NCBI GenBank assembly: GCA_945860705.1
Contig: CAMART010000006.1
Span: 1-64,000 of the forward strand
Direction of reading: 5' to 3'
Length of the DNA: 64,000 bases
DNA from: Chitinophaga pinensis
Lineage (GTDB): Bacteria; Bacteroidota; Bacteroidia; Chitinophagales; CAMDFR01
A program made the translations under genes and the position numbers. Every line of letters starts with the position of its first letter. Within the stretch, counting starts at the first letter, position 1. The notes under the pieces were generated by a model, which did not search any database, was not told the origin of the DNA, and was given only the letters and a program-made list of their open reading frames with translations. Below, in pieces: positions 43,751 to 52,695 of this stretch.

Positions 43751-45406
43751 ATGAAATTATTTGAGCCATTAGGTAGACTTTTAAAACTTTTAGATAGACA
43801 CAAAAAAGAATTAACGTCTATTTATTTTTATGCTATACTTAGTGGTATAGTACAGTTGAGCGTTCCTATAGGAGTACAAGCTATTATTAGTTTTGTATTA
43901 GGTGCTACAATGGTTACATCTATTTATGTTCTTATTGTTCTAGTGGTAATAGGTGTATTGTTAGTAGGAGTGATGCAAATGAATCAGATGAAAATTATCG
44001 AAAAAATACAACAAAGTATTTTTGCAAGTTATGCAATAGAATTTACAGAAGTAATACCTCGATTTGATTTGAGAAAAACAGATGATTTGTATTTGCCAGA
44101 GCATGTCAATAAGTTTTTTGATGTATTAAATGTTCAAAAAGGATTGTCAAAAATATTATTAGAAATTCCTATTGCTAGTATTCAAATTTTATTCGGATTG
44201 ATTTTATTGTCTTTATACCATCCAGTATTTATAGTATTTGGCTTATTGCTTCTTGTTGTATTGATATTTATTTTGAAATATACAAGTGTAAAAGGTCTAG
44301 AAACAAGCCTCAAAGAAAGTTCTTATAAATACTCAGTAGTAGCTTGGCTTCAAGAGATGGCAAGGGTAATTAAATCCTTCAAGTTTAGCCAAGGTTCGCA
44401 TCTTAACCTACAAAAAACAGATAAAAATCTGCAAGGATACTTAACAGCTCGTACAGCACACTTCAAGATTTTATTATTTCAGTATCAAACATTAGTTTTC
44501 TTCAAAGTGACTATTACATCAGCAATGCTTATCATAGGCACATTTTTATTAATCAATCAAAGCTTAAATATCGGTGAGTTTATAGCTGCAGAGATTGTAA
44601 TATTGATGGTGATAGCTTCTATAGAAAAATTGATTAGTAGTTTAGATAGTGTTTATGATGTGATCACAGGATTAGAAAAACTTGCTACGGTTACAGATAG
44701 TCCACAAGAAAAGGATGGTTCTGTATTATTAAATGCTCAAGAAAATGGTGTAGAATTTGATATGGTTGATTTTAGTTATAATTTTCCAAATGGGCAACTC
44801 CTTTTCAATAAAGTAAATTTAAGTATTCCAAAATATTCATTAGTAGGTATAAGCGGACTAGAAGGAGCAGGTAAAAGCACGCTTTTAAAAATATTTAGCG
44901 GTAGTGTAAGTGATTACCAAGGTAATATTTTATTAAATAATATACCTATGACGAATTATCAGTTAGAAAGTTTAAGAAATCAAATAGGTATGTATCTGCA
45001 TCAGCAAGATATTTTTAAAGGAAGTATATTTGAAAATATAAGTATGTGTAGACAAGGAATAAGCCCAGAAATAATTATGGAAACAGCTGAAACATTAGGC
45101 TTTGAAAAATTTTTAATTAATATTCATAATGGCTTGGACACTTTGATAGATGCAAGTGGAAAAAAACTACCAAATACTTTAGTGAAAAAATTACTATTGC
45201 TTAGAGCATTTGTCAATAAGCCCATATTATTATTGTTGGATGAGCCATGGACAGGATTAGAAGAGCAAGCAAAAAATAACTTAATCGATTATCTATTAGA
45301 TAAAAAATTAAAAAGAACGATATTGGTTGCCACTAATGATGCCGATTTTTTAAGTAAATGTGATATTCAAATAGAATTAAATAACGGAAATGCAATTGTC
45401 AAATAA
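43751..45406 (+). CDS. ABC transporter (membrane plus ATPase domains) with degenerate ATPase signature
   Basis: A 551-residue half-transporter. Residues 20-310 are the six-helix membrane domain of the type I secretion/multidrug exporter class; there is no C39 peptidase domain. The ATPase domain keeps Walker A GLEGAGKST (369-377), a Q-loop (HQQDIFKGSIFEN) and Walker B LLLLDEPW. However, the LSGGQ signature is replaced by LPNTL (473-477) and the switch-loop His is N529 (VATNDADFL). Both lost residues normally complete ATP hydrolysis across the dimer, so activity may be low or altered. It heads an operon with HlyD- and TolC-like genes under the divergent TetR regulator. Confidence 0.88.
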   Translation: MKLFEPLGRLLKLLDRHKKELTSIYFYAILSGIVQLSVPIGVQAIISFVLGATMVTSIYVLIVLVVIGVLLVGVMQMNQMKIIEKIQQSIFASYAIEFTEVIPRFDLRKTDDLYLPEHVNKFFDVLNVQKGLSKILLEIPIASIQILFGLILLSLYHPVFIVFGLLLLVVLIFILKYTSVKGLETSLKESSYKYSVVAWLQEMARVIKSFKFSQGSHLNLQKTDKNLQGYLTARTAHFKILLFQYQTLVFFKVTITSAMLIIGTFLLINQSLNIGEFIAAEIVILMVIASIEKLISSLDSVYDVITGLEKLATVTDSPQEKDGSVLLNAQENGVEFDMVDFSYNFPNGQLLFNKVNLSIPKYSLVGISGLEGAGKSTLLKIFSGSVSDYQGNILLNNIPMTNYQLESLRNQIGMYLHQQDIFKGSIFENISMCRQGISPEIIMETAETLGFEKFLINIHNGLDTLIDASGKKLPNTLVKKLLLLRAFVNKPILLLLDEPWTGLEEQAKNNLIDYLLDKKLKRTILVATNDADFLSKCDIQIELNNGNAIVK

Positions 45407-45407
45407 T

Positions 45408-46742
45408 ATGAATTCAGCTGAATATAAAAAAAATCTAAAGTCTACTAAATTAATTTATAGATACAATATAGAAAGTAGAGTAAAATATTGGTTTATTGGG
45501 ATTATTATTTTTCTACTTTTTATTATGTTTTTGCCATGGACTCAAAATATCAAATCTAAAGGTCTAGTGACATCCTTATACCAAGAAGAAAGACCACAAG
45601 ATATCAATTCTCCAATAGCGGGTAAAATAGTTCAGTGGTATGTGAAAGAAGGTGATATAATAAGAAAAGGTGATACAATACTAAAAATAACCGAGATAAA
45701 GGAAGACTACTTAGACCCAAATCTAGTAGCTCGTACACAACAACAATTAGATGCTAAAAAAGGGGTTGTAAATTATTATCAAGGTAAAGCAAGTACTGCA
45801 GATGTACAAATCGAAGCACTTTTAGAAGCAAAAAAACTAAAAATAGAACAACTAAAAAATAAACTTAGCCAATTAGAAAATAAACTTACTGGAGAAAGGG
45901 CTGAACTAAGCGCAGCAACCAATGAATTGGAGCTTGCTACAGACCAATATGTAAGACAACAAAAAATGTTTGATGAAGGATTGGTGTCTAAAACACAACT
46001 TCAACAAAGAAATATTTCCTACCAAAATGCACAAGCAAAAAAGATAATGGTAGAAAATAAATTGGCTCAAACTAAACAAGAAGTTACCAATGTAAGAATA
46101 GAACAAAACTCTGTAGAACAAGAATATACAGAGAAGATAAGTAAAGCCACAGGGGATAAGTTTCAAAGTATGAGTATGATAGAAGGTGGTAAAGGAGATA
46201 TGGCAAAACTCGAAAATCAAGTATCTAACTATACTATCAGAAATGGCATGTATACTTTATTAGCTCCACAAGATGGGCAGATAGTACAAGCTAAAAAATC
46301 AGGTATTGGTGAGATAATCAAAGAAGGAGAACGTATCACTGTTATCGTTCCTACCCATGTCACTTATGCTGTAGAAATGTTTGTAAAGCCAGTGGATTTG
46401 CCATTAATAAGTGTCGGGCAAAATGTTCGATTCATGTTTGATGGATTTCCTGCTATAGTTTTTAGTGGTTGGCCAAATAGTAGTTATGGTACATTTGGTG
46501 GTGAGATAGTAGCATACGAAAATACAATAAGTGAAAATGGAATGTTTAGAGTGTTGGTAAAACCTGATAATAGTACTAAAAAATGGCCTACTCAACTTAA
46601 GATAGGAAGCGGTGCACAAGGTATTACACTTCTAAAAGATGTACCTATTTGGTATGAACTCTGGAGAAATATAAATGGGTTCCCACCAGATTATTACAAA
46701 TTAAAAGTTTCAGATACTAAAGTAAAATCAGATAAAAAATAA
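45408..46742 (+). CDS. HlyD-like periplasmic adaptor
   Basis: A 444-residue membrane-fusion protein: one N-terminal membrane helix (about 28-48 of the mature frame), a biotinyl-lipoyl half-motif (SPIAGKIVQWYVKEGDIIRK), a long coiled coil (about 105-235, EALLEAKKLKIEQLKNKLSQ and onward), the second lipoyl half (YTLLAPQDGQIVQAKKSGIG) and a beta-barrel domain. I place the start at ATG 45408, one base after the ABC stop; an in-frame ATG at 45390 inside the ABC gene is less likely. It bridges the ABC protein and the TolC-like channel. Confidence 0.9.
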   Translation: MNSAEYKKNLKSTKLIYRYNIESRVKYWFIGIIIFLLFIMFLPWTQNIKSKGLVTSLYQEERPQDINSPIAGKIVQWYVKEGDIIRKGDTILKITEIKEDYLDPNLVARTQQQLDAKKGVVNYYQGKASTADVQIEALLEAKKLKIEQLKNKLSQLENKLTGERAELSAATNELELATDQYVRQQKMFDEGLVSKTQLQQRNISYQNAQAKKIMVENKLAQTKQEVTNVRIEQNSVEQEYTEKISKATGDKFQSMSMIEGGKGDMAKLENQVSNYTIRNGMYTLLAPQDGQIVQAKKSGIGEIIKEGERITVIVPTHVTYAVEMFVKPVDLPLISVGQNVRFMFDGFPAIVFSGWPNSSYGTFGGEIVAYENTISENGMFRVLVKPDNSTKKWPTQLKIGSGAQGITLLKDVPIWYELWRNINGFPPDYYKLKVSDTKVKSDKK

Positions 46743-46743
46743 T

Positions 46744-48165
46744 ATGAAAAATAGATTTTTATATATCTGTATATTTCTTAGTTGTTTGTTTTTAATATAT
46801 TCAACTGCATCTGCACAAAGCGAATTTAAAACATTAAACTCTGAGCAGGTTTTACAACTAGTAAAACTCTATCATCCTATAGCTCGTCAAGCGCAGATAG
46901 GTGTGGAGAAAGCACAAGCAGATATCGTTATAGCTAGAGGTGCTTTTGATCCTATTATCAATAGTTATCTGAGTAGAAAATCATTTGATGGAAAAGACTA
47001 CTATACATATAGCAATCTTGAAATAAAAATTCCTGCTTGGTATGGTATAGAAGTATACAGTGGTATAGAAAGTCTAAGTGGTGCAAGAGTAGACAATTCT
47101 AGTACACTAGGACAAACTAATTTTTTAGGCATCAGTATTCCTTTAGCAAAAAATTTAGTATTAGACAAACGTAGAGCATATCTACAACAGGCTAGAATTT
47201 TTAAAACTTTGGCTAAAGTAGAACAGCGTTCTACAATCAATGATTTGCTTATGGGTTCTATGGAAGCATATTGGCAATGGGTACGAGCATACCAGACATA
47301 CTTAGTTATGAAAAACAATGTTGAGGTCAATCAAAAAAGATTGGAATTGGTAAAAAAATCTTTTGATAATGGGGAAAGACCAGCTATAGATACTACTGAA
47401 GCAAGTACACAATTGATGAGTTTTCAATATCAACAAAATGCCTATTGGTTAGAGTTTCAAAATGCAGGATTACAACTTTCTGCATATTTGTGGAAATCAA
47501 ATGATGAACCTTATAATCTTCCAGAATCTATAATACCACAAGATGGTTGGGAAATCGAAACTAATATTTTGCAGTTTAATCTAGAGCTTACCAATCTGCT
47601 CAATACTGCCATAACCATGCACCCAGAATTGCAGGTATATGAAAATAAATTAGATATACTTACAATTGAAAAACGATTAAAATTTCAAGAGCTTTTGCCT
47701 AAAATCGATTTTAGATATAATTTATTGGGTAAAGGATATAATGTTTTTAGAACACCAGTAGAGAGTCAGCTATTTGAAAATAATTTTCAGTACGGATTGA
47801 AATTAGAAGTGCCATTATTATTTTCAAATGGTAGAGGTCAGTACAGACAAGCAAAACTAAAAATAGAAGAAACCCGTTTAGATCAAAACCAAAAACTATT
47901 AAGTGTGCAATTGAAAGTGAGAAGCTACTATAATGAATTTGTAAACTTGCAAAATCAAATAGCACTACAAAGTAGAAACTATGAAAGCTATCTCCAACTT
48001 GTACGAGCAGAACAAAGCAGATTTGAAAATGGAGAAAGTTCACTTTTTATGATTAATAGTAGAGAAAATAAAGCACTAGAGGCATACGAAAAGCTCATAG
48101 AACTTAAAACAAAATACTTTAAAACCATTTACTCACTTCAATGGAGTGCAGGACTTTTAATTTAA
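46744..48165 (+). CDS. TolC-family outer-membrane channel
   Basis: A 473-residue outer-membrane efflux protein with signal peptide 1-24 (STASAQ). Two OEP repeats with long alpha-helices follow (STINDLLMGSMEAYWQWVRAY, NVEVNQKRLELVKKSFDNGE in the first half; LKVRSYYNEFVNLQNQIALQ, SRFENGESSLFMINSRENKA in the second). The latter is the conserved FxxGExSLF-type turn of Bacteroidota TolC proteins. It begins two bases after the HlyD stop and completes the export operon. No dedicated substrate gene is adjacent. Confidence 0.92.
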   Translation: MKNRFLYICIFLSCLFLIYSTASAQSEFKTLNSEQVLQLVKLYHPIARQAQIGVEKAQADIVIARGAFDPIINSYLSRKSFDGKDYYTYSNLEIKIPAWYGIEVYSGIESLSGARVDNSSTLGQTNFLGISIPLAKNLVLDKRRAYLQQARIFKTLAKVEQRSTINDLLMGSMEAYWQWVRAYQTYLVMKNNVEVNQKRLELVKKSFDNGERPAIDTTEASTQLMSFQYQQNAYWLEFQNAGLQLSAYLWKSNDEPYNLPESIIPQDGWEIETNILQFNLELTNLLNTAITMHPELQVYENKLDILTIEKRLKFQELLPKIDFRYNLLGKGYNVFRTPVESQLFENNFQYGLKLEVPLLFSNGRGQYRQAKLKIEETRLDQNQKLLSVQLKVRSYYNEFVNLQNQIALQSRNYESYLQLVRAEQSRFENGESSLFMINSRENKALEAYEKLIELKTKYFKTIYSLQWSAGLLI

Positions 48166-48204: not shown

Positions 48205-48212
48205 TAGATTTG
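48205..48212 (+). promoter_or_regulatory. ECF sigma gene -7 box (TAGATTTG)
   Basis: TAGATTTG matches the housekeeping TAnnTTTG box, 17 bases before the TTG start of the sigma gene. It implies basal expression of the sigma factor independent of its own activity. Confidence 0.55.
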
Positions 48213-48228
48213 CTATAATACTAGCAAT

Positions 48229-48741
48229 TTGAACTTAGAGGATATATATCGAGATCATAAAAAAATGGTTTATAATCTGGCTCTTCAATACACACAAAAT
48301 ATTGAAGACGCTGAGGAAGTAGCCCAAGATGTATTTGTATCTATATATAATTCGATTGATAAATTTCAAGCAAACTCAAAACTTTCTACTTGGATTTACA
48401 GAATCACCATAAATAAATCTTTAGATTTTATAAAGGCAAAAAAAACAAAAAAACGATTTGCATTCATTACGAATTTATTTTTTGAAGATAGTAATGAAGT
48501 AAAACATGACAAGGCAAATTTTAATCATCCAGGTGTAGAGTTAGAAAACAAAGAAGCTGTAGAAAAAATATTTCACGAAATAAATCAACTACCTACAAAT
48601 CAAAAAACAGTAATCATACTCAGTAGAATAGAACAAAAATCTCAAGCAGAAGTAGCGGAGATAATGAATCTAAGTATTAAAGCTGCAGAATCATTGTATC
48701 AAAGAGCCAAACAGAATTTATCAAAAAAACTTAATAATTAA
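48229..48741 (+). CDS. ECF RNA polymerase sigma factor
   Basis: A 170-residue sigma-70 group 4 protein with only regions 2 and 4. Region 2 shows DAEEVAQDVFVSIYNSIDKF and STWIYRITINKSLDFIKAKK; region 4 shows LPTNQKTVIILSRIEQKSQAEV and MNLSIKAAESLYQRAKQNL. It starts with TTG, supported by alignment of the first residues to the family and by the promoter box. It is followed by a small membrane protein in the anti-sigma position and a periplasmic metal-sensor-like protein. A promoter-like site, CGAAGG-N16-CGTC, begins right at its stop codon, and a second copy lies before the YHYH gene. Confidence 0.92.
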   Translation: MNLEDIYRDHKKMVYNLALQYTQNIEDAEEVAQDVFVSIYNSIDKFQANSKLSTWIYRITINKSLDFIKAKKTKKRFAFITNLFFEDSNEVKHDKANFNHPGVELENKEAVEKIFHEINQLPTNQKTVIILSRIEQKSQAEVAEIMNLSIKAAESLYQRAKQNLSKKLNN

Positions 48742-48767
48742 CGAAGGAATAAAAAATAATCATCGTC
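48742..48767 (+). promoter_or_regulatory. ECF-type promoter A (CGAAGG-N16-CGTC)
   Basis: CGAAGG (48742-48747), 16 bases, CGTC (48764-48767), then A. The geometry equals that of ECF promoters such as TGAAAC-N16-CGTC. It begins at the first base after the sigma stop, and the anti-sigma ATG is 17 bases after CGTC. It shares GAAGG, AT-rich spacer, ATCGTCA and a trailing AAAAC with promoter B. Confidence 0.75.
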
Positions 48768-48783
48768 ATAAATAATACAAAAC

Positions 48784-49065
48784 ATGAGAGAAATAGATAA
48801 AATGGATGAATTAGATGCATTACACCACATAAAAAAGGTAGATGCACCTGAATTTCTATTTACTAGAATAGAACAAAAGCTAAAACACGAAAAAAGTGCT
48901 AAAATGCCAGCATGGGCTCTATATGCGATTAGTACTTCTTTAGCAATTATTTTGTTTGTAAATGCATTTGCTATCATATCATATTCGAAATCATCAAGAC
49001 AGGAAGCAAACCTTGCAAAAGCTATGAATTTATTACCTTCAAATAATATATATAGCTATGAATAA
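48784..49065 (+). CDS. Small single-pass membrane protein, probable anti-sigma factor
   Basis: A 93-residue protein: a cytoplasmic N-terminal part of about 40 residues with an amphipathic helix (FLFTRIEQKLKHEKS), one membrane helix (42-67) and a short periplasmic tail. No catalytic or zinc-binding anti-sigma motif is visible. Size, topology and position directly after the ECF gene match minimal anti-sigma factors such as CnrY. Its last eight bases overlap the next gene, a periplasmic sensor, as expected if the two products meet across the membrane. The role is inferred from context. Confidence 0.75.
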   Translation: MREIDKMDELDALHHIKKVDAPEFLFTRIEQKLKHEKSAKMPAWALYAISTSLAIILFVNAFAIISYSKSSRQEANLAKAMNLLPSNNIYSYE

Positions 49066-49540
49066 GGTAAAATATTTAAGTATAGTTACAACTATATTGT
49101 TGATTTTAAATATACTGCTTATTGCATTTATTTTATTGCACAAACCCAATATGAATGAACCTAGAGGTCCACATGGCCATATGCATGGTCCAAGAAATAT
49201 AATTATTGAAAAACTAGATTTTGATAATGTGCAAATAAAGCTCTATGACGAAAAAATAAAATGGCATCAAGAAGAAATGTTTCGAACTCAAAAAGACATT
49301 TTAGCGCTAAAAAGACAACTTTATTCAACCTTAAATCAAACACAGAATGTAACCTTAAATGATTCTTTAATTCTAGAAATCAATAAGGTGCAAAACCAAG
49401 TAGAACATATCAATATTAAGCATTTTGAGGATATTAAAACAATCTGTAAACCTAATCAAATGAATAAGTTTAAGGATCTTAGCACTGAATTGGCAGATTT
49501 ATTTAGCCCACCAAAAAGAAGACCACCTCATAAAGATTAA
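49058..49540 (+). CDS. Spy/CnrX-like periplasmic metal-sensor protein
   Basis: A 160-residue protein with one N-terminal membrane helix (6-27), a His-rich linker (H39, H41, H43 in GPHGHMHGPR) and a long helical periplasmic domain. The two-helix hairpin, WHQEEMFRTQ (H70, M74) and the late segment CKPNQMNKFKDL resemble the Spy/CpxP/CnrX fold and its LTxxQ-type motif. In CnrX, His and Met ligands bind Ni or Co and release the sigma factor through CnrY. A proline/lysine/arginine tail ends the protein. Metal identity cannot be read from sequence; the downstream MbnP/MbnH pair suggests copper. Confidence 0.78.
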   Translation: MNKVKYLSIVTTILLILNILLIAFILLHKPNMNEPRGPHGHMHGPRNIIIEKLDFDNVQIKLYDEKIKWHQEEMFRTQKDILALKRQLYSTLNQTQNVTLNDSLILEINKVQNQVEHINIKHFEDIKTICKPNQMNKFKDLSTELADLFSPPKRRPPHKD

Positions 49541-49565
49541 TTAAGATAATGTAAATAATTTATTA

Positions 49566-50246
49566 ATGATACGAATTTGTTTTACATGTTATCTTATGTG
49601 TTTTTATACTGCACTTTGTGCACAAGATATTTCTATTAAAATTATACCTGTTTTAAATGGTCAAAAAATTGAACTAGATAGATTTTATAAAATAAATATA
49701 AATGATAGTATTGAATTCATAAATCTTAAGTTTTATATATCTTCAATTCAATTTTTTTATAATAATAAGTTAACTTTTGAAGAATCGTCTAGTTATCATC
49801 TTATTGATTTGTCTAAACAAAGTACTACGGCTATTTCAATTAAAAATATACCTAATATAAAATATAATACTATAAGATTTAATTTAGGAATTGATAGTGT
49901 AACAAATGTATCTGGAGCATTTGGAGCTGATTTAGACCCTACAAATGGAATGTATTGGACTTGGCAAAATGGATATATCAATTTTAAAATGGAAGGAAAA
50001 AGCAATTTGTCAACCAATAAAAATGCTGAGTTTGAATTTCATTTAGGAGGCTATCAATATCCTTATAATTCACTACAAACTATAAAATTAAAATTGAAAA
50101 ATAAACAGTATATAAAAATTGGATTAACATTAAATGAATTCTTTAAATTTATAGATTTAGCTACTCAGAAAAACATCATGTCGCCTTCTGCATCAGCGGT
50201 AAATCTATCAAAAAATATTGCTCACTTGTTTTTTATTTCTAAATAA
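49566..50246 (+). CDS. MbnP-like periplasmic protein
   Basis: A 226-residue exported protein (signal 1-20, TALCAQ) of the MbnP family. Hallmarks are FNLGIDSVTN, DPTNGMYWTWQNGYINFKM (with W131 and W133) and FEFHLGGYQYPY (H159). In methanotrophs MbnP has a tryptophan oxidised to kynurenine by its partner MbnH and then binds copper (established for that pair). Here the MbnH-like gene overlaps its stop by one base. No methanobactin biosynthesis genes are present, so the role should be copper handling without methanobactin. Confidence 0.85.
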   Translation: MIRICFTCYLMCFYTALCAQDISIKIIPVLNGQKIELDRFYKININDSIEFINLKFYISSIQFFYNNKLTFEESSSYHLIDLSKQSTTAISIKNIPNIKYNTIRFNLGIDSVTNVSGAFGADLDPTNGMYWTWQNGYINFKMEGKSNLSTNKNAEFEFHLGGYQYPYNSLQTIKLKLKNKQYIKIGLTLNEFFKFIDLATQKNIMSPSASAVNLSKNIAHLFFISK

Positions 50247-51265
50247 TGAAGAATTACATCTATATATTTTTAGTAGTATTGGTAGCTATATATTCTTTCA
50301 CTAAAATTGATAATGAATGGTTCATTTCACTAAAAGGCTTTCCCCAACCTATATATGATTTTAAGAATAATACTTTATCACAAGAAAAAATAAATTTAGG
50401 TAGAGCATTATTTTACGATCCTATTTTATCTAAAAACAATACTATCTCTTGTTCTAGTTGTCATCTACAATATACGGCTTTTACGCATGTAGACCACACA
50501 GTAAGTCACGGAATTGATGATAGAATAGGTACACGAAATGCACCAGCATTGATGAATTTAGCATGGCACTCTTCATTTATGTGGGATGGAGCTATCAATC
50601 ATTTAGATATGCAATCTTTACTGCCTATTTCACATCCAGATGAAATGGGAGAAACAATAGAACACGTAGTTGATAAAATGCAAAAAACTTCATACTATCC
50701 AAAATTATATTATGATGCATTTGCAGATAGCACTATCACAGGCGAACATACACTCAAAGCTTTAGCTTCTTTTATGGTAACTCTTATCAGCAATAATTCT
50801 AAATATGATAGTGTGATGCGAAGAGAATCTATATTTAATGACCAACAAGCAAATGGATATGCACTTTTTAAAAAGAAATGTAGTATTTGTCATTCGGAAC
50901 CACTTTTTACTAATATGAAATTTGAAAATAATGGTTTGTCTTACGACACTTTTTATAAAGATAATGGTAGAATGAAAATTACTCAACTCACAGATGACTC
51001 TTTAAAGTTTAAAGTGCCATCACTTCGAAATATAGAGTTTTCTTATCCATATATGCATGACGGAAGATTTAAAAAGTTGTCTGAGGTGCTTAACCATTAT
51101 AATACAGGTGTAGTTCATTATAAAAATACTTCTGTGTTTTTAAACGATAGTATGGGTTTATCATCCAATGAAAAAGTAGACATAATAGCATTTTTATTGA
51201 CACTAACTGATAAAACTTTTTTATTTCATAAAAAATATTCATATCCAAGAAATTTATATAAGTAA
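50246..51265 (+). CDS. MbnH-like di-heme cytochrome c peroxidase
   Basis: A 339-residue member of the bacterial di-heme peroxidase/MauG superfamily with an N-terminal membrane signal (1-18). Two heme-c sites are CSSCH (69-73) and CSICH (212-216). MHDGRFKKLSEVLNHYN near the end is the conserved segment following the second heme. It is translationally coupled (TAATG) to the MbnP-like gene. The expected job is post-translational oxidation of a tryptophan in that protein; a plain hydrogen-peroxide detoxifying role is the alternative. Confidence 0.87.
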   Translation: MKNYIYIFLVVLVAIYSFTKIDNEWFISLKGFPQPIYDFKNNTLSQEKINLGRALFYDPILSKNNTISCSSCHLQYTAFTHVDHTVSHGIDDRIGTRNAPALMNLAWHSSFMWDGAINHLDMQSLLPISHPDEMGETIEHVVDKMQKTSYYPKLYYDAFADSTITGEHTLKALASFMVTLISNNSKYDSVMRRESIFNDQQANGYALFKKKCSICHSEPLFTNMKFENNGLSYDTFYKDNGRMKITQLTDDSLKFKVPSLRNIEFSYPYMHDGRFKKLSEVLNHYNTGVVHYKNTSVFLNDSMGLSSNEKVDIIAFLLTLTDKTFLFHKKYSYPRNLYK

Positions 51266-51266
51266 A

Positions 51267-51292
51267 TGAAGGTATTAAAATTAATTATCGTC
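51267..51292 (+). promoter_or_regulatory. ECF-type promoter B (TGAAGG-N16-CGTC)
   Basis: TGAAGG (51267-51272), 16 bases, CGTC (51289-51292), then A. It begins one base after the MbnH stop and is 44 bases before the YHYH ATG. The similarity to promoter A spans about 40 bases and is not otherwise expected between two short intergenic regions. Confidence 0.75.
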
Positions 51293-51336
51293 AGATATAA
51301 ATTATAAAACAATAAATATTTAAATTTTAAAAAACA

Positions 51337-52695
51337 ATGAAAAAGAATCTTACATTATTTATTTTAAATGCATTTACCATTTGTGTATTTGCTCAGACTA
51401 ATCCTATTATCACTGGTTGGCTTCAAAATACCACAGGTGTAAAAGGAAGACATTATGCAGCTCCAAGTACAACTCCAATAAATGATGCCGATTCAGCAAA
51501 TATTAAAACTGTATTGTACTCTACAGGTTCAGTATATGTCCGTGCAAATGGAGTACCTACATACATTACAGGTCCTTTTCAAGATGGCAATCCATCATTG
51601 ACTACAAGTCAAAATGCAATTTTTAAATTACCACTTAACCCAACAAGAAATACAGGAACACCGACTGCAACAACAGGTGGTAATATTGGCTTGTTTATTA
51701 ATGGTGTAGCCTTATTTGATTATAGAGATGGTGTAGCTTGGAATAATACTACTATGGCACTTTGTGGAGGTCCAGGAAATCCACCATGTCCAGGAGGTCC
51801 AGGTGCAAGTATGGATTGGAATAGAGATGCGGTACCAGCTGAAAAAGCAGGATTTGACTGTGCTAAAGGACACCCAGCTATGGGTAATTATCATCATCAT
51901 CAAAACCCTAGTGCATTTGATTTAGATAAAGTAGTTATTTCAAATGTATGCACACTTTATGATGCAGATGGTTTATATGTAATTGATAGTACGGTTCATT
52001 CTCCATTAATTGGATTTGCTTATGACGGTTTTCCTATATATGGAGCTTATGCTTATAAAAATGCAGATGGAACTGGTGGTATCGCTAGAATGAAATCGAG
52101 CTATACGCATAGAAGCATCACTACTCGTACATTAGGTCCTGCAGTAAATACTACATATCCTTTAGGTTATTTTAGAGAGGATTATCAATACAATACTACT
52201 TCTGCTTCTACTCCAGATTATTTAGATGAGCACAATGGTCGTTTTTGTATTACACCTGAATATCCTGCAGGAATCTATTGCTATTTTGCTACTGTAGATG
52301 CCAACTGGAATTCTTCTTATCCATACGCAGTAGGTCCTACTTTCTATGGTGTAAAATCTGCAACTAAAGTTACTACAATCACAGAGCCAGTAACTGTATA
52401 CTTAGATACTACATCTTCAGGAGTAGGTATTAATAATTTAGAACAAAATTTTTCTGTAGATATATTCCCAAATCCTGCAAATGATCTAATAGCAGTACAA
52501 GTAAAAAATATTAATAGAGAAAATATCAAAGTAGAATTATTTGATTTTACAGGAAAAAAAGTCGATGAAACTACAATTCTACAAGGAAGTACGATTGCAT
52601 ATTTTGATACTAAAACTTTATATAGTGGTCAGTATATAGTAAAAATATCTAATAGAAATAATATAAGTAGTTATAAAATAGATTTAATAAAATAA
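51337..52695 (+). CDS. Secreted YHYH-domain protein with type IX sorting tail
   Basis: A 452-residue protein with signal peptide 1-19 (CVFAQ), a YHYH domain (about 50-340) and a type A C-terminal sorting domain (about 370-452, SVDIFPNPANDLIAVQVK to SSYKIDLIK). The family motif appears as Y185-H-H-H in GNYHHHQNPSAF. Nearby GHPAMG and LIGFAYDGFPIYGAY are conserved family segments. The histidine cluster suggests metal binding at the cell surface. It is transcribed from its own ECF-type promoter after the MbnP/MbnH pair, and a terminator follows. Confidence 0.87.
   Translation: MKKNLTLFILNAFTICVFAQTNPIITGWLQNTTGVKGRHYAAPSTTPINDADSANIKTVLYSTGSVYVRANGVPTYITGPFQDGNPSLTTSQNAIFKLPLNPTRNTGTPTATTGGNIGLFINGVALFDYRDGVAWNNTTMALCGGPGNPPCPGGPGASMDWNRDAVPAEKAGFDCAKGHPAMGNYHHHQNPSAFDLDKVVISNVCTLYDADGLYVIDSTVHSPLIGFAYDGFPIYGAYAYKNADGTGGIARMKSSYTHRSITTRTLGPAVNTTYPLGYFREDYQYNTTSASTPDYLDEHNGRFCITPEYPAGIYCYFATVDANWNSSYPYAVGPTFYGVKSATKVTTITEPVTVYLDTTSSGVGINNLEQNFSVDIFPNPANDLIAVQVKNINRENIKVELFDFTGKKVDETTILQGSTIAYFDTKTLYSGQYIVKISNRNNISSYKIDLIK

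Follow-up and report, generated by a model that had tools for sequence, protein, structure and literature searches.

The locus is best explained as a whole by a closed circuit in which an ECF sigma factor acts, upon a metal signal, through two promoters of the form GAAGG-N16-CGTC, and a probability of roughly 0.78 is assigned to this reading. In the window, i.e., the whole stretch of 64,000 nucleotides that was analysed, the sigma factor very probably drives the genes for an anti-sigma factor, a periplasmic sensor, MbnP and MbnH and, separately, a gene for a secreted YHYH protein. An earlier note on this DNA had proposed this arrangement of one sigma factor, a site A for the anti-sigma operon and a site B for the YHYH gene, and the proposal is supported, as relatives carry the motif at both positions. 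Since the promoter recurs at the same locations in many Bacteroidota, the connection of the switch with the YHYH surface protein is real and not a coincidence.

Genes and promoter-like sites of the locus

The features of the locus are listed below in order of position.

48205..48212, + strand: candidate basal promoter of the sigma gene, TAGATTTG, matching TAnnTTTG in a pattern scan
48229..48741, + strand: ECF sigma factor, 170 aa, TTG start (Pfam Sigma70_r2 2e-17 and Sigma70_r4_2 2e-13; TIGR02937 above cut-off)
48743-48767, + strand: site A, GAAGG-N16-CGTC, candidate ECF promoter for anti-sigma, sensor, mbnP and mbnH (GAAGG at 48743-48747, CGTC at 48764-48767)
48784..49065, + strand: putative anti-sigma factor, 93 aa, its role assigned from position and topology, with 25 homologues at the same position aligned
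49058..49540, + strand: membrane-anchored periplasmic sensor, a CnrX/NccX/Spy-type helical hairpin by profile matches and predicted fold
49566..50246, + strand: MbnP-family protein (Pfam MbnP 1.5e-43, 149 bits against a cut-off of 27)
50246..51265, + strand: MbnH-family di-haem (MauG-like) enzyme (Pfam CCP_MauG 1.6e-51, 175 bits)
51268-51292, + strand: site B, GAAGG-N16-CGTC, candidate ECF promoter for the YHYH gene (GAAGG at 51268-51272, CGTC at 51289-51292)
51337..52695, + strand: secreted surface protein with a YHYH domain (PF14240) and a T9SS type A sorting domain (Pfam, TIGR04183)

Two non-coding copies of (C/T)GAAGG-N16-CGTCA had been described in the earlier note, and both are found in place between genes; the ends given there, 48767 and 51292, are right for CGTC and one base short for the final A, which sits at 48768 and 51293. 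Site A, preceded by C, begins 1 base past the sigma stop codon (48739-48741) and ends 16 bases ahead of the anti-sigma start codon; site B, preceded by T, begins 2 bases past the MbnH stop codon (51263-51265) and ends 44 bases ahead of the YHYH start codon. The exact motif is thus observed twice in the window against 0.20 copies expected from shuffles, and none of 100 window shuffles reaches two copies, even when spacers of 14-18 are allowed. The further similarity of the two sites over about 40 bases, also described previously, is real, though modest, with 30 identical bases in 40; among the 31 columns other than the nine fixed ones, 21 match, compared with 14.5 expected from shuffles (p about 0.006). 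Scans for sigma-70 promoters and terminators gave none above shuffles.

A scan of the whole 2.94 Mb genome for more copies, as the earlier note had suggested, gives three exact copies, and the one additional to sites A and B lies in coding frame within a 686-aa ORF; none of the nine one-mismatch sites with the longer (flanking) consensus, genome-wide, precedes a credible gene. The regulon in this genome seems to consist of exactly sites A and B. Genome-wide motif counts were rejected as evidence, being no higher than the backward control in nearly all genomes; therefore, the evidence lies in the position of the motif and not in its count.

The sigma factor consists of regions 2 and 4 only, as is characteristic of the ECF sigma of CnrYXH-type systems, and carries Gln139, Lys151 and Gln158 in region 4. 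Its apparent start is a TTG at 48229, with no ATG upstream, about 17 bases after the TAnnTTTG element; we take this element to be the primary-sigma -7 element of Bacteroidota, and TAGATTTG is read as such. The weak TTG start may keep the level of the sigma factor low. No GAAGG-N16-CGTC promoter precedes the sigma gene itself in the window, and since site A comes after the sigma gene, active sigma would raise its inhibitor and the sensor and not itself, so that the circuit looks like negative feedback rather than self-amplification. Genes for an ABC transporter half, an HlyD-like and a TolC-like protein lie directly upstream of the sigma gene at 43751-48165; they were considered as parts of the system and rejected, as they are not beside the sigma gene in a relative (G003). 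The anti-sigma factor has a cytoplasmic N-terminus of about 44 aa and one hydrophobic segment, and matches no Pfam family above cut-off; its length and single hydrophobic segment fit the CnrY-type class II, a comparison made by these features and not by a family match.

In the MbnP-family protein, Trp131, Trp133, Met129 and His159 are invariant (45 of 45), the WxW motif being present; the stricter TIGR04052 cut-off is missed (43.6 against 140), and phmmer gave no solved relative. The MbnH-family enzyme has two CxxCH motifs, CSSCH and CSICH, and its best solved relative is 6e1c, a di-heme enzyme (E 7e-37); its TIGR04039 score of 215 bits is under the cut-off of 363. The YHYH protein is a clear member of PF14240 (5e-56, 190 bits against a cut-off of 25) with invariant histidines at positions 179, 186, 188 and 221, and its C-terminus matches Por_Secre_tail (2e-12), TIGR04183 (42.4 against 23) and the CTD fold (Z 11); by this sorting domain, it is a predicted cargo of type IX secretion. 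A sequence search with the YHYH domain gave no solved relative, and in a fold search the T9SS tail alone matched well and filled the match list, a result that does not amount to evidence of a new fold.

Sensor, signal and proposed mechanism

The sensor protein of the window taken alone has no Pfam match. The profile of its family matches Spy best (7e-7), followed by CnrX (1e-4) and NccX (2e-4), and among 59 sensor homologues Metal_resist is matched by 38 and LTXXQ by 29. In the predicted structure (pLDDT 91), nearly the whole CnrX domain is matched with Z 11-12 and an rmsd of 2.6-3.6 over 104-108 residues, compared with Z of about 9 for Spy. A CnrX-like hairpin is supported by this model; a Z score between helical bundles is not conclusive alone, and the sequence matches agree with it.

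The metal of CnrX is bound by His42, His46, Glu63, His119 and Met123. In the present sensors, the conserved residues are His70, His122, Cys130, Gln59 and Gln134, and 42 of 65 have all three of His70, His122 and Cys130. The position of His122, which matches that of CnrX His119 in the alignment, is conserved in 59 of 65. The other CnrX ligand positions (His42, His46, Glu63 and Met123) are not conserved across the 65 sensors, and that of Met123, a metal ligand in CnrX (PMC7689651), is occupied by V, I or L in 63 of them. Because most CnrX ligands are not conserved, the ability to sense metal may have been lost or changed. The metal response proposed earlier agrees with the predicted CnrX-like fold but mostly not with the CnrX metal ligands; a response to metal is what we infer.

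An alternative that is considered unlikely, though worth weighing, retains the same sigma factor and promoters and takes the signal to be envelope misfolding or oxidation, perceived by a Spy/CpxP-like or cysteine-based sensor, with MbnP, MbnH and YHYH responding to redox stress. Such a signal would suit the Spy profile as the best sensor match, the LTXXQ matches, the missing CnrX ligands and the two thioredoxin-fold genes behind the sensor in G003, but it fits less well with the joint conservation of His70, His122 and Cys130, with the alignment of His122 to the CnrX ligand His119 and with the closer fold match to CnrX than to Spy, and the MbnP and MbnH targets and neighbouring SCO1 genes suggest copper.

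The targets are binding or maturation proteins and not efflux pumps, and they point to copper as the metal. MbnP/MbnH and the comparable CorA/CorB and MopE pairs have been linked to copper (PMC3621798, PMC3912023), and SCO1 genes adjoin the module in two loci (L153 and L064); together with the thioredoxin-fold genes of G003, these observations favour copper handling, perhaps under scarcity. If CnrX is taken as the model, activation by metal in the bound state would be the favoured direction.

Under the favoured reading of a metal-signalled circuit, a non-ECF promoter of its own would supply the sigma factor at a low basal level, and the short one-helix anti-sigma factor, coupled to the CnrX-like periplasmic hairpin, would hold it at the membrane. 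A periplasmic change, most likely copper binding to or leaving the His-His-Cys site of the hairpin, would free the sigma factor, and sigma-RNA polymerase would then initiate at GAAGG-N16-CGTC. Initiation at site A would yield more anti-sigma and sensor (negative feedback) as well as MbnP and the di-haem enzyme paired with it, MbnH; initiation at site B would yield the secreted YHYH protein. The products would work outside the cytoplasm, with YHYH exported through the type IX system, and MbnH probably oxidises MbnP residues, thereby building a copper site. A bolder version, put forward as speculative, makes YHYH the central effector through which Bacteroidota would handle copper: a secreted surface copper protein, possibly matured by the MbnH-type di-haem enzyme, would be governed by a copper-sensing ECF switch with CnrX-like and CnrY-like parts and negative feedback, and would serve methanobactin-independent copper capture or storage at the cell surface.

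Conservation of the motif and reach of the regulon

Homologous loci were gathered through protein homology (sigma or MbnP), and the motif was never a criterion; 398 genomes of the order were searched, and about 80 regions were examined. Among 64 homologous sigma/anti-sigma junctions (7.5 kb), exact GAAGG-N16-CGTC is present in 26 and a site with at most one mismatch in 39, compared with 0-2 matches for each spacer from 10 to 23 other than 16, an average of 0.03 for 119 permuted-letter motifs, 0.003 for shuffles and 0 on the reverse strand. Conservation near the orthologous genes, on which the earlier note had staked its proposal, is thus observed. Columns that had not been selected are also kept in the 26 exact junctions, with A after GAAGG in 25 and C before it in 21, and (T/A)AA follows CGTC, giving the extended consensus gcGAAGGA-N15-CGTC(T/A)AA. 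The families with the motif include f1 (that of the window), f6, f9, f13, f19, f21 and f22.

The exact matches in the examined loci number about 48: 27 fall at the junction and 12 directly ahead of YHYH, 3 precede the sigma gene (L092, L100 and L108 only), 1 precedes mbnP, 1 precedes an mbnH-like gene and 4 are elsewhere. Outside the order, G577 and G597 have an exact site A. The sigma-anti-sigma-sensor module occurs phylum-wide, most of its distant members having other promoter sequences, and the GAAGG type is a subset of this broad module. At the same junction, seven loci (L093, L095, L114, L116, L138, L141 and L145) have the variants GCAAG, GCATG or GCAGG-N16-CGTC or CATC.

Relatives of the YHYH protein were counted with a model of the YHYH domain alone, leaving out the T9SS sorting domain. 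In some of the 12 examined genomes with the exact motif just upstream of YHYH, this gene is unlinked to the sigma gene, and the motif is likewise found upstream of YHYH in L151, L152, L156, L160 and L193, the first four of which, independent named contigs retrieved via the sigma protein alone, have both sites. In a genome of the same class outside the order (G408), site B is exact and site A has AAAGG. In three genomes (G033, G045 and G078), sites A and B are both altered to CATC, a joint change that is expected if one protein reads both sites. Moreover, in family f22 (G037, G071 and G082) the sigma gene and the MbnPH-YHYH cluster are unlinked and the motif is present at both, which argues that the regulon acts in trans. 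The description of the regulon as self-contained, made in the earlier note, thus applies to the window genome with its two sites, and elsewhere gives way to regulons with unlinked loci. YHYH is the commonest direct target outside the anti-sigma operon; MbnP and MbnH, the linkage of which to the module changes about nine times on the sigma tree, are optional partners that are gained and lost.

A site within one mismatch of the consensus precedes YHYH in 19 of 36 genomes with the sigma factor, leaving 17 with none, and in 0 of 6 genomes that lack it (Fisher p 0.024, with genome relatedness ignored). Reading of the motif by another protein, i.e., a different ECF sigma factor or a transcription factor, with the adjacent sigma gene merely sharing the locus, is improbable: the genome offers 17-19 other ECF-like candidates at first look, but in many families the motif recurs at the junction of this very sigma gene as well as at YHYH genes located at other places in the genome, is absent before YHYH in all the sigma-less genomes and has the two boxes and fixed 16-base spacer typical of ECF promoters. 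The -35 variants also accompany residue 158 of sigma region 4, which presumably is the counterpart of Phe175 in the -35 reading helix of E. coli sigma E; this residue is Q, S or H with GAAGG or AAAGG, and F with GCAnG in 10 of 11 cases. As this association involves only about three changes on the tree, with 2-3 independent pairs, and is not significant as independent events, it is a lead and not proof. The adjacent sigma factor is taken to be the probable reader of GAAGG-N16-CGTC. Chance resemblance, or conservation through overlap with conserved coding DNA, is refuted, for although genome-wide counts do not exceed the backward control and the -35 box in many loci reaches into the end of the gene before it, shuffles and permuted motifs give about 0 at junctions, and the site can lie as far as 125 bases beyond the sigma stop (L135) and behind differing genes (sigma, mbnH or sensor).

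Relation to described systems and variant loci

The locus resembles CnrYXH in its working, yet is not a member of that system. As in CnrYXH and NccYXH of Cupriavidus metallidurans (PMC7689651, PMC9045368), an ECF sigma factor is combined with a protein that is short, has one predicted membrane helix and is the putative anti-sigma factor here, and with a periplasmic helical-hairpin sensor anchored in the membrane, and one ligand histidine is aligned (CnrX His119 with His122 here). However, membership fails on the metal ligands, with Met123 and most other CnrX ligands absent and a conserved Cys130 instead, as well as on targets and promoter layout: the CnrYXH promoter stands ahead of the whole operon and RND efflux genes belong to its regulon, whereas here the promoter follows the sigma gene, which lies outside its own regulon, and MbnP, MbnH and YHYH are the targets. 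The gene order also differs, being Y-X-H there and sigma-anti-sigma-sensor here.

Similarly, the FecIRA-like MbnI/MbnR/MbnT system of methanotrophs (PMC3621798) has an ECF sigma factor encoded near an MbnP/MbnH pair, but it relies on a FecR-like anti-sigma factor and a signal via a TonB-dependent transporter; here, the 93-aa anti-sigma factor has no FecR match, and no TonB-dependent transporter was found among the scanned ORFs near the sigma gene. The copper-repressible surface proteins CorA/CorB and MopE/SACCP (PMC3912023) likewise combine a di-haem MauG-like enzyme with a secreted partner, the Trp of which becomes kynurenine at the copper site in the CorA/MopE type (PMC3912023). These systems have no known ECF switch, and YHYH is an extra exported protein in the present locus; MbnP has been described as lacking marked sequence similarity to MopE or CorA (PMC3621798). 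In the literature searched, which covered few subscription journals, no description of this set of parts was found, in agreement with the earlier note, and YHYH is not discussed together with MbnP/MbnH.

For an uncharacterised ECF sigma factor of several Bacteroidota families, the analysis names a defined promoter (GAAGG-N16-CGTC) and regulon as well as a candidate for the signal. The YHYH family gains a regulatory context and a tie to the MbnP/MbnH pair. According to a survey, class I anti-sigma factors adjoin only 6% of Bacteroidetes ECFs, and other modes or classes were proposed to prevail in this group (PMC7406223); the sigma-anti-sigma-sensor module is a defined example on which this suggestion can be tested. 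Both promoters are short and discrete, and thus suited to reporter assays.

Several loci depart from the arrangement in the window. In family f44 of another order (L197, L198, L200-L202, L205 and L207), the sigma gene is preceded by an additional sensor-like gene, giving the order sensor-sigma-anti-sigma-sensor. In G350, MbnH is broken into two frames (L049, 7001-8040; frameshift or assembly error) with the downstream motif intact, and in L148 (2128-3465) a longer MauG-like di-haem protein of 445 aa, with its own motif, takes the place of MbnP/MbnH after the sensor. Locus L153 (10350-12365) has a short YHYH lipoprotein-like gene with the motif directly upstream and an SCO1 gene after it. Finally, L092 (G172) contains several tandem YHYH-domain genes and three copies of the motif, located before the sigma gene, before the anti-sigma gene and before one of the YHYH genes.
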